The notes beneath the pieces were generated by a model that was given only the letters and a program-made list of their open reading frames with translations, was not told the origin of the DNA and did no database searches. The translations under genes were made by a program, and so were the position numbers. From positions 1 through 35,497 of the forward strand of contig JAPHTP010000030.1 in NCBI GenBank assembly GCA_026196875.1: a DNA stretch of 35,497 nt, in the 5' to 3' direction. Origin of the DNA: Kangiellaceae bacterium. Lineage in GTDB: Bacteria > Pseudomonadota > Gammaproteobacteria > Enterobacterales > Kangiellaceae. Below, one piece after another: positions 16,513 through 21,546 of the stretch (the first letter of the stretch is position 1; each line of letters begins with the position of its first letter).

Positions 16513-18372
16513 TTACTCGTCGAGAAAACTTCTCAAACGATCTGAGCGAGTTGGATGACGAAGTTTTCGAAGCGCTTTAGCTTCAATTTGTCGAATACGC
16601 TCACGAGTAACGTCAAATTGCTTGCCTACTTCTTCAAGTGTATGGTCGGTGTTCATATCAATACCAAATCGCATACGTAAAACTTTGGCTTCACGCGCGG
16701 TAAGTCCTGCTAAAACAGATTTCGTCGCTTCTCTTAAACTTTCTGAAGTCGCAGAATCGATAGGTGAATCTTGATTAGCGTCTTCGATAAAATCACCAAG
16801 ATGCGAATCTTCATCATCACCGATCGGTGTTTCCATCGAAATTGGCTCTTTTGCGATTTTGAGAACTTTTCGGATTTTATCTTCCGGCATATCCATCCGT
16901 TCAGCTAATTCTTCCGGCTGAGGCTCTCTGCCCATCTCTTGCAGCATCTGTCGAGAAATTCGATTTAACTTATTGATGGTTTCGATCATATGAACCGGAA
17001 TACGAATGGTTCTTGCCTGATCTGCAATTGAACGAGTAATTGCCTGACGGATCCACCAAGTTGCGTAGGTTGAAAACTTATAACCACGGCGATATTCGAA
17101 TTTGTCTACAGCCTTCATCAGGCCGATGTTTCCTTCCTGGATAAGGTCTAGAAACAGCAAGCCGCGATTGGTGTATTTTTTAGCTATCTAAATAACAAGT
17201 CGTAAGTTCGCTTCGACCATTTCTTTTTTAGCACGTCGAGCCTTAGCTTCACCAATAGACATACGTCTATTGGTTTCTTTAACTTCCGCGATGGTCAAGT
17301 TGCTATCGACTTCAACTTTAGCCATTTTGTTTTGCGCGCGAATAATATCTTCGGCTACTTCTTCTAACGCTTCGCGATAATCGGTGTCTTTCGCGAGCAT
17401 CGAGTCAATCCACTTGGTATTGGTTTCATTGCCCGGGAAGGTCTTGATAAAGTCTTTGCGCGGCATTTTGGCCGTCTCGGTAGACAAGCGCATAATCAGC
17501 CTTTCCTGAGTTCTTAGCAAGGCCATACGCGAACGCATTTTGTCTGAAAGACGATCAAATGTTTTTGGTAACAATCGGAATTGCAAGAAAGCTTCTTTCA
17601 TTCCTTCGATATGTTTGACGGCAGTCTTATGATTGCGTCCGTATTTGGCAATGGCAGCAACTGATTTTTCATAGTGCTTTCTCATTTCGCCAAACAACTG
17701 GGCAGCTAGTTCTGGATCCGGGCCTTGATTACCTTCTTCTTCTTCTGAATCGTCATCCGTTTCCAAATCAGCATCTTCATCTGCTAACTCTTCTTTAGGT
17801 ACTTCACTTCCGACATGGCTCGCCGCCATTGCAGCTTCTTCTTCAGATTCTGCAAAACCAGTTATGATATCTGTTAGACGAATTTCTTCAGCTTGATAGC
17901 GATCAAATTCATCGAGCAGCATTGAAATGGTTTCTGGATACTCTGCAATTGATGCAAGTACTTGACGAATTCCGTCTTCGATTCGTCTGGCGATTTCAAT
18001 TTCGCCTTCTCGGGTAAGTAGTTCAACTGTACCCATTTCACGCATGTACATACGTACAGGATCAGTCGTACGACCGAACTCGCTGTCAACGCTTGCCAAT
18101 GCAGCTGCTGCTTCCTCAGCAGCATCTTCGTCTGGCGCGGACGAATCAGTCATCAATAAAGCGTCAGCTTCCGGTGCGGCTTCGAAAACTTGAATACCCA
18201 TATCATTAATCATGCTAATGATATCTTCTACCTGATCCGGATCGACTATATCTGGTGGAAGATGATCGTTTACCTCAGCATAAGTTAGATAGCCTTGTTC
18301 CTTACCGCGAGTAATCAAAAGCTTCAGCTGCGACTGCTGTGAAACTGGAGATGAAGGGGAGTTATCTGTCAT
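16513..18372 (-). pseudogene. rpoD: RpoD, primary sigma-70 factor, interrupted by an in-frame TAG
   Basis: RpoD is the housekeeping sigma factor that directs RNA polymerase to -10/-35 promoters. The frame from ATG 18372 to TAA 16513 would encode 619 residues, close to the 613 of E. coli, but codon 395 (17188-17190) is TAG. Before it lie region 1.1, region 1.2 (GRTTDPVRMYMREMGTVELL), the acidic non-conserved region and the start of region 2 (KEMVEANLRLVI). After it, in the same frame, come IAKKYTNRG, regions 2.2-2.4 ([20 protein letters not shown]), region 3 and region 4 ([20 protein letters not shown]). The family has Ser at the stop position. Eleven codons on, the conserved Gln of GLQFLDL is Leu (CTG). 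There is no frameshift. Either half alone would lack essential parts, so I list it as broken, with consensus error the likeliest cause. Confidence 0.9.
17188..17190 (-). other. In-frame amber codon inside rpoD
   Basis: On the minus strand the reading is ...CTT GTT ATT TAG ATA GCT... where sigma-70 proteins have Leu-Val-Ile-Ser-Ile-Ala. One base change (TCG to TAG) would explain it. A second likely single-base change (CAG to CTG) lies at 17155-17157. Confidence 0.95.
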
Positions 18373-18613: not shown

Positions 18614-20464
18614 TCATTTTGAGTAGATAGCTTTCTGCAATTGCTTTAGTTGATCTTTCTCCGCGCCAGTGACGGTACCATTGCGAAGCTTTTCGGTCAA
18701 TCTATCCCATTGATCTAAAAGGTAATTTTTTTCTAAGCGTTTAAATATCTCGCAAAGTTCTGAATGTACGTTTTCCGAATCCGCATGCAACTCCATATTG
18801 GCTAGTTTAATTAGGTGGGGATATTCCGGTTTTTCGCGCCAATTCTCGACCAATATTGCTGTGGTAGCCGCTTCATTGTTGGAAATAAGCTTATAAATTT
18901 CATACAACATTTGAGCACCAAGCTCTTCTATGGGTTTTAGCCAGCCTAAATCTGCCGCGGGAAGGGCATCAGGATATTGCAATAAGAGGGCAATTGCCCT
19001 TCTAAATGGCGCCTTGTTTCGCTCACTCTGCTTAGGCTTTGCTGTTGGCGGGGTCTCTACTGTTTGTTGTGGTTGATGCCCCTGAGTGTTGTATTCTGGA
19101 GGTGGGTTTTCGTTGTGATATGTCGGAGGATTTTGCCCTGATTGAGATATTTGTGATTGAGTATCAATATCACCTGGTTCCAAAGTTGATTCGAGTTGCT
19201 TTTCACTTAGTCCAGTCAGCTGGCTCAACTTCTGTTGAAAACGGGCCAATAAAATGGGTTCCTTTATTTCGGTTATAAAGGGTTTTGCCAAATGTACGAG
19301 CTTTGCCGGGCCTTCAAAAGTATTCATATCGACTTGGCTGGTTAGATATTCGAATAAATAGTCAAATAAAGTGGTCGCTTGTTGAACTTGCTCTAGAAAA
19401 GATTCAGAACCAATGTTTCGAACCATGCTGTCAGGATCTTCTCCTTCCGGCAAAAACATCAAGCGGATTTCTCTGGCTTCTTTTAGAAGTGGCAGCGCAT
19501 GATTGAGCGCACGCAGTGCGGCTGCGCGGCCTGCTTTATCACCATCGAAACAAAACACAATACTTGGGCAAATTCTAAACAGAGTTAGTAAGTGGTCACT
19601 TGTTGTGGCGGTTCCTAATGTAGCAACTGCATTGTAAATCCCATACTGGGCAAGCGCGACCACGTCCATGTACCCTTCAACAATGATAACTTGATCGATA
19701 TTACGTAACTGGCGACGCATTTCATAAATTCCATAGAGTTCTCTGCCTTTATGAAATAGGACTGTTTCCGGAGAATTTAAGTATTTAGGCTCTCCTTTAT
19801 CGATCACTCTCCCGCCAAACCCTAGCACCTGGCCTCGTCGATTGCGAATTGGAAACATAATTCGGTCGCGAAAGCGATCATAGGCACGGCCATCATCTTT
19901 CTTTATCATCATGCCTGTCTTGACCAAGTTTTCTTGTAGCGCTTTCTGGTCTTTTTCCAGGCCGAGCAGATTTTGCCAGTCGGGCGGGGCGTAGCCGATT
20001 GCGTATTGCTTAGCAATCTCTCCGCTAAGCCCTCGATTTTTTAAATACTCAATTGCTTTACGAGAATTAGGATGGTGTTTTAACTGTAGCTGATATGCCG
20101 CCGCAACTTTCTCCATCGTTTCATATAGTTCGTTGTTTTGGTTGAAATTTGAACCTAGAGATGCCTCTCTCGGGACTTCCATACCTTGCTGGCCGGCGAG
20201 CTCTTCCACTGCCGCGACAAATTCTTGCCCTTCATACTCCATAATAAAAGTCAGTGCATTACCACTCGCACCACAACCGAAGCAGTAATAAAACTGTTTA
20301 TCCGGGTTAACCGAAAATGAAGGGGTTTTCTCGTTATGGAAAGGGCAGCAAGCGCTGTAATTTCGGCCAGCTTTTTTTAATGGCACGCGACTATCAATAA
20401 TATCTACCAGATCGACTCGGGCGAGTAGTTCATTGATAAAGGATTGTGGGATTCGTCCTGCCAT
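18614..20464 (-). CDS. dnaG: DnaG, DNA primase
   Basis: DnaG synthesises RNA primers on the lagging strand at the replication fork. The 616-residue protein has the N-terminal CHC2 zinc finger (Cys40, His43, Cys61, Cys64), the RNA polymerase domain and a TOPRIM core with the catalytic VEGYMDVVAL and CFDGDKAGRAA. A low-complexity Gln/Pro/Asn-rich linker (about residues 435-485) leads to the C-terminal helicase-binding domain. The linker is the least conserved part, as in other primases. The start is ATG at 20464 (MAGRIPQSFI, typical). The gene lies between yqeY and rpoD, the macromolecular synthesis operon order with yqeY inserted. Confidence 0.97.
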   Translation of the reverse strand: MAGRIPQSFINELLARVDLVDIIDSRVPLKKAGRNYSACCPFHNEKTPSFSVNPDKQFYYCFGCGASGNALTFIMEYEGQEFVAAVEELAGQQGMEVPREASLGSNFNQNNELYETMEKVAAAYQLQLKHHPNSRKAIEYLKNRGLSGEIAKQYAIGYAPPDWQNLLGLEKDQKALQENLVKTGMMIKKDDGRAYDRFRDRIMFPIRNRRGQVLGFGGRVIDKGEPKYLNSPETVLFHKGRELYGIYEMRRQLRNIDQVIIVEGYMDVVALAQYGIYNAVATLGTATTSDHLLTLFRICPSIVFCFDGDKAGRAAALRALNHALPLLKEAREIRLMFLPEGEDPDSMVRNIGSESFLEQVQQATTLFDYLFEYLTSQVDMNTFEGPAKLVHLAKPFITEIKEPILLARFQQKLSQLTGLSEKQLESTLEPGDIDTQSQISQSGQNPPTYHNENPPPEYNTQGHQPQQTVETPPTAKPKQSERNKAPFRRAIALLLQYPDALPAADLGWLKPIEELGAQMLYEIYKLISNNEAATTAILVENWREKPEYPHLIKLANMELHADSENVHSELCEIFKRLEKNYLLDQWDRLTEKLRNGTVTGAEKDQLKQLQKAIYSK

Positions 20465-20676: not shown

Positions 20677-21126
20677 TTAAGAGAGCTTACCTTTTACTAA
20701 TCCGCTTAATGCCGCCATCTGATCTGCACGGCCTTGCATTTGTGGTTTGAGAATAGCCATCACTTTACCCATATCGCGCATCGATTCAGCTCCTGTTTCA
20801 CTGATTGCAGCGTCAATCATGGCTGCAATGTCATCATCGCTTAGAGCTTTAGGTAAGAATTCTTGTAGCGCTTCCATTTCGGCTTTTTCGGTTTCAACGA
20901 GATCCAAACGGCCGCCACTTTCAAACTGAGCGATTGAGTCTTTACGTTGTTTTACCATTTTATCTAGAATGTCCAATACGTCAGCATCGGTTAGCTCAAT
21001 TTTTTGATCAACTTCAACTTGCTTAACTTGAGCAAGTAACATTCGAATAGTACCTAAGCGAACTTTTTCTTTAGCTCGCATAGCTTCTTTCATACTATCT
21101 TTGATTTGTGCTAGTAATGCTGACAT
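20677..21126 (-). CDS. YqeY/GatB-like domain protein
   Basis: This is a 149-residue GatB/YqeY family protein. The fold matches the tRNA-binding tail domain of the GatB amidotransferase subunit, but here it stands alone. Family members often sit between rpsU and dnaG and their role is not settled. Visible features are the N-terminal MRAKEKVRLGTIRMLLA, KQRKDSIAQFESGGR, and the C-terminal DMGKVMAILKPQMQGRADQ. I prefer ATG at 21126 (MSALLAQIKDS). A TTG six bases earlier is possible. A TAAGGC/GCCTTA inverted repeat (20666-20679) overlaps the stop but has no U-tract. The 211 bases between it and dnaG hold nothing else I can name. Confidence 0.92.
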   Translation of the reverse strand: MSALLAQIKDSMKEAMRAKEKVRLGTIRMLLAQVKQVEVDQKIELTDADVLDILDKMVKQRKDSIAQFESGGRLDLVETEKAEMEALQEFLPKALSDDDIAAMIDAAISETGAESMRDMGKVMAILKPQMQGRADQMAALSGLVKGKLS

Positions 21127-21153
21127 ATCCAATTCCGGTTAATTCTTATTTCA

Positions 21154-21330: not shown

Positions 21331-21546
21331 TTAGTACAAACGCTTACGTTGTAGTTGCTCGCGAGAAGCTTTTTTCAACGAACGCTTTACCGCAGCTGCT
21401 TTTTTGCGTTTGCGAACTGATGTTGGCTTTTCGTAGTGCTCACGACGGCGTACTTCTGACAAGATGCCCGCTTTTTCGCAAGCGCGCTTAAAGCGACGAA
21501 GAGCAATATCAAATGGCTCGTTTTCTTTTAACTTAACTGCTGGCAT
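21331..21546 (-). CDS. rpsU: Ribosomal protein S21
   Basis: This 71-residue basic protein of the 30S subunit is almost identical to gammaproteobacterial S21: [20 protein letters not shown] at the start and [11 protein letters not shown] at the end. S21 helps base pairing between mRNA and 16S rRNA at initiation. Its own ribosome site is weak (GGGA about ten bases upstream of the ATG). A perfect hairpin sits in the leader at 21567-21582. The gene heads the rpsU-yqeY-dnaG-rpoD cluster and is divergent from tsaD, the common arrangement. Confidence 0.98.

Follow-up and report, generated by a model that had tools for sequence, protein, structure and literature searches.

The gene for the primary sigma factor, rpoD, of the Kangiellaceae bacterium studied here is interrupted in the assembled sequence by a single in-frame TAG, and the most probable reading, to which we give a probability of about 0.86, is that this stop and a neighbouring CTG are sequence errors in the consensus and that the organism itself carries an ordinary rpoD. 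On this reading, bases of the TAG and the CTG were called wrongly in one short stretch of the consensus, and a full-length primary sigma factor would most likely be made from the gene as it exists in the cell. We infer the error from the established role of RpoD: with the present copy as its only rpoD, a cell could not make the primary sigma factor. A consensus error is the best reading since only one rpoD was found, TAG acts as an ordinary stop in the genome, and nothing able to read through it was detected. The window, by which we mean the whole stretch of DNA analysed, is a complete contig of 35,497 bases (C52) from an assembly that totals 6,276,235 bases over 188 contigs, with a stated completeness of 100% and a contamination of 2.19.

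The rpoD frame lies on the minus strand at 16513..18372, running from an ATG at 18372 to a TAA ending at 16513 and comprising 619 codons including the TAG, plus the stop. The TAG, at 17188..17190 (codon 395), is its sole interruption. When the gene is read across this stop it resembles any other RpoD, scoring 401 bits with the family model TIGR02393 against a cut-off of 354, and it differs from that family in the one TAG that interrupts it; the closest named RpoDs among the matches listed are gammaproteobacterial. The second unusual codon, CTG for Leu at 17155..17157 (codon 406), comes 11 codons past the TAG, a distance of 33 bases when measured between the middle positions, 17189 and 17156. 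In a comparison with PDB entries, this Leu aligns to residue 400 of the 613-residue E. coli RpoD chains.

The stop divides the gene into two open pieces, both on the minus strand. By Pfam, the upstream piece (17191..18372) runs through sigma regions 1.1 and 1.2 and the non-essential region into the very start of region 2, and the downstream piece (16513..17160, its earliest possible start being a TTG at 17160) holds the remainder of region 2 together with regions 3 and 4. One and the same RpoD model covers both, from positions 22 to 406 in the upstream piece and from 419 to 631 in the downstream one, and the downstream piece enters the Pfam region 2 model at position 23 of 71. The cut is therefore inside region 2 and not between functional regions.

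On the minus strand, rpoD is the last of four genes in the order rpsU, a YqeY-like gene, dnaG and rpoD. The gene for DNA primase, dnaG (18614..20464), is intact and adjoins rpoD on its upstream side, in keeping with an ordinary rpoD locus spoiled by a consensus error. Beyond it lie a 151-aa open frame (20677..21132) without an NCBIfam match, which is putatively YqeY-like, and a 71-aa frame (21331..21546), presumably rpsU (S21), named from its sequence; both are on the minus strand.

An earlier note on this DNA had drawn attention to the TAG in an otherwise open rpoD, to Ser as the residue expected in its place, and to the CTG where the family has Gln. All three observations hold. The minus-strand frame reads as described from 18372 to 16513, and among 115 other RpoDs aligned with that of the window, the TAG column carries Ser in 114 and Ala in one, with a stop in none of the 115, while the column of codon 406 carries Gln in all 115. 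In this alignment, 250 columns are conserved at 97% or more, and the RpoD of the window departs at two of them, codons 395 and 406 only. The rest of the gene is thus under normal constraint, with no further departure in the 250 columns, as would be expected of a sound gene with a faulty patch in its consensus. When the 116 RpoDs, window included, are scored in this way, 57 show no departure, 25 show one, 17 show two, and 17 show more. Two departures are therefore an ordinary count, and it is their kind, a stop and a Gln-to-Leu change at a column without exception, that is unusual.

The interruption also appears to be confined to this assembly. When genomes of the order were searched with a pattern that places a TRR codon here, one of 394 matched, namely this genome, although the pattern requires the usual flanking residues and genomes with other flanks would be missed. 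Uniqueness of this sort favours a consensus error, and in this respect the site resembles known breaks caused by sequencing or assembly: a singleton in an otherwise constrained gene of one assembly, absent in relatives.

Two further arguments of the earlier note fared less well. It had taken the closeness of the two changes as a sign of error, but paired departures no more than 11 residues apart occur in nine of the 12 most departing RpoDs listed (the window is not among the 12), and because natural RpoDs also show such pairs, the clustering is weak evidence for error and tells somewhat against leaning on it. The lean of that note towards a local consensus error nonetheless stands as the best reading, since tests lent no support to its other three options, with its clustering argument weaker than stated. 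It had also described both changes as single-base differences from TCG and CAG. This is an assumption, true only if those were the earlier codons. Five RpoDs of the same genus have TCT, TCG, TCT, TCA and TCT as their Ser codons, and each of them has CAA for the Gln (five of six genomes of the genus; the sixth, 82% complete, gave no RpoD match over the cut-off). Since the relatives mostly use other codons, with Ser not TCG in four of five and Gln never CAG, two base changes may not suffice, a point that counts against a consensus error.

The quality of the assembly as a whole also bears on this reading, and here no other errors were visible. A scan of 1,022,205 bases of the same genome, window included, ranked 2617 stops by a codon-pair coding score on both sides; this score replaced an earlier version based on codon usage, which had missed the rpoD site. 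The rpoD TAG ranked 41st of the 2617, and 18 sites at that rank or above, rpoD being one of them, had both pieces of at least 100 codons. When the other 17 same-frame stops were searched piece by piece against Pfam, 13 had different genes on the two sides, three had a match on one side (one of these below the curated cut-off) and one had a match on neither. The 13 include two succinyl-CoA ligase subunits, which share a domain but have a copy each. No other split family was seen among these 17 stops, 13 of them resolved on both sides, in about 1.02 Mb; the control covers high-ranked sites with pieces of at least 100 codons, and sites with shorter pieces were searched in part. Likewise, rpoB and gyrA of the same assembly are free of stops and agree with every column that is invariant in the other sequences compared, 24 for rpoB and 27 for gyrA. 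This comparison drew on 25 of the 27 rpoB loci and 28 of the 30 gyrA loci, omitting the final two entries for each gene. The power of this second control is modest, as zero departures are found in ten of the 25 rpoB and 14 of the 28 gyrA sequences, this genome's included. An otherwise clean assembly speaks to some extent against an error in rpoD. A generally poor assembly is not supported, rpoB and gyrA being clean, and the controls suggest a fault that is rare and local, as opposed to poor quality throughout.

The local sequence offered no cause for the changes. Templating of the TAG base from nearby DNA is not favoured, as 75% of gene positions gain as much or more from local pairing. The changed base of codon 406 falls in the top 9% for this gain, which was not counted as evidence. 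Exact word matches nearby reach six and seven bases at the two sites, which is within background, and the fold of the single-stranded DNA at the site is ordinary (z 0.17). Inside rpoD, at 17251-17274, there is also a perfect 10-base hairpin, with no counterpart in the 58 relatives, of 115 tried, in which the protein motif was read. Perfect stems of 10 bases number 117 in 1.02 Mb of this genome, common enough to be due to chance, and the hairpin was dropped as a cause.

Whether a TAG could be read at all was approached through the tRNA genes. An Rfam tRNA search, in which 150 of 426 first-look candidates were scored, gave at least 51 places, and ARAGORN, run over sequence containing all 51, called 48 of them. 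The three uncalled places are a piece at a contig end on C72, whose loop reads CAT by eye, a place of 57 bases at C78:3567, and C26:33861, which ARAGORN called Met with relaxed settings; no CUA anticodon could be made out in any of the three. Nor does a CUA anticodon occur among the ARAGORN calls or the 46 distinct tRNA sequences collected. A pattern combining a CUA loop with a T-loop occurs at 65 places in the genome, compared with 130 for a backward control, and ARAGORN found no CUA tRNA at any of the 65, while a pattern built alike, but with the anticodon of each tRNA in place of CUA, recovers 43 of the 46 known tRNAs. A stricter CUA pattern with a CCA end had no match in the genome. A tRNA could still be hidden, because tRNA genes stand at contig ends (C131 and C72) and because the Rfam search missed at least one tRNA called by ARAGORN, a Leu tRNA at C26:33235-33309.

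Two features of the tRNA complement deserve mention in their own right. At C26:31831-35642 of this genome, 13 tRNA genes form an array on one strand, several of them with low tRNA scores. The array had seemed a likely location for a suppressor, but CUA is absent from its called anticodons. The genes beside it, named from their sequences, presumably encode RtcA, RtcB, a slipin-like protein, an HNH protein and a nucleotidyltransferase, and the array and its neighbours look like a cluster of the RNA-repair type with a tRNA set of its own. On C131, two 3′ halves of tRNA-Phe lie 13 kb apart (64483-64511 and 77750-77778), one of them at a contig end; it was to these halves that tRNA-Phe, at first missing, was traced by pattern. 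They probably mark an element integrated in tRNA-Phe, the repeat of which breaks the assembly.

Several other explanations were weighed against a consensus error. The copy seen here could be a real decayed or variant one, derived from a strain mixture or a duplication, with the working rpoD absent from the assembly or merged into this sequence. The 188 contigs, the contamination of 2.19 and the placement of some genes at contig breaks leave room for such a loss, but the stated completeness of 100, the position beside dnaG and the lack of decay outside the two codons make it unlikely. Moreover, of 41 genomes examined, 38 yield a single match above the RpoD cut-off. The earlier note's suggestion of another rpoD elsewhere likewise found no backing in the assembly. 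An RpoD profile search of the genome gave five places, of which only that on C52 exceeds the curated threshold (401 bits against 354); the next, a 342-aa frame on C31 with 274 bits, scores as expected for RpoS, which is our own reading of that gene. A 301-base DNA query from the rpoD region found itself and two weak partial matches in the assembly, with E values of 0.135 and 0.88. Alternatively, the TAG could be real and an amber-suppressor tRNA could insert an amino acid, giving a full-length sigma factor. The tRNA genes cut at contig ends allow for this, as does an E. coli line equipped with an engineered amber tRNA: a surviving clone of that line had lptD, which is essential, interrupted by an in-frame TAG (PMC5818497), showing that an essential gene can carry a TAG if a suppressor is present. 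The present case is like that clone in having an in-frame TAG in an essential gene. It differs from suppressed amber mutants in that no suppressor tRNA was found and release factor 1 is intact (prfA, 557 bits), and the option of a CUA tRNA, also raised by the earlier note, was not borne out by Rfam, ARAGORN or the two CUA-loop patterns. In addition, TAG ends 111 of 384 open frames of at least 300 codons (a mechanical count in sampled stretches of the same genome), and strong suppression would extend these. Suppression is accordingly rated very unlikely, and the same slim chance attaches to its specific form, in which the only primary sigma factor is made by amber read-through with the suppressor tRNA located in an assembly gap.

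Two remaining proposals also take the TAG at face value. In one of them, again an option of the earlier note, two separate pieces would act jointly as sigma, the second being started at the TTG at 17160 or an ATG at 17118. Split sigma pairs exist in other systems, and a purine-rich AGGAAGGA lies upstream of an in-frame ATG, but this stretch codes for conserved residues and would be expected there anyway. The cut inside region 2, instead of between regions, and the lack of a match to the stop pattern in the 393 other genomes of the order also speak against it, so that reinitiation gains no support and must be considered highly improbable. The other proposal, that TAG is reassigned in this organism, has the rpoD TAG as the one observation in its favour and is close to refuted. 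The intact prfA and the lack of a detected CUA tRNA tell against it, and TAG is an ordinary working stop in this genome. For example, it ends ten of the 29 open reading frames taken as genes in the window, and it parts unrelated neighbours such as DUF2170 and PspA, aconitase and isocitrate dehydrogenase, signal peptidase II and FKBP, and Rho and UbiD.

A consensus error, by comparison, has published precedent. On resequencing of Vibrio fischeri ES114, errors accounted for 75 of 82 suspect loci (PMC2330054), and a survey of frame breaks regards sequencing error as the expected origin of one class of singletons (PMC3711429). Those sets consist mostly of frame breaks, whereas the rpoD described here has substitutions only. 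No natural case of an amber codon in rpoD was found in the literature searched.

As an error, the TAG matters only to annotators of this assembly, who would be led to record rpoD as a pseudogene or as two genes. A real TAG would provide an example, rare in nature, of an essential regulator with a single gene copy whose synthesis passes through a stop codon, and if a suppressor did lie in an assembly gap, housekeeping transcription in this bacterium would be under read-through control.
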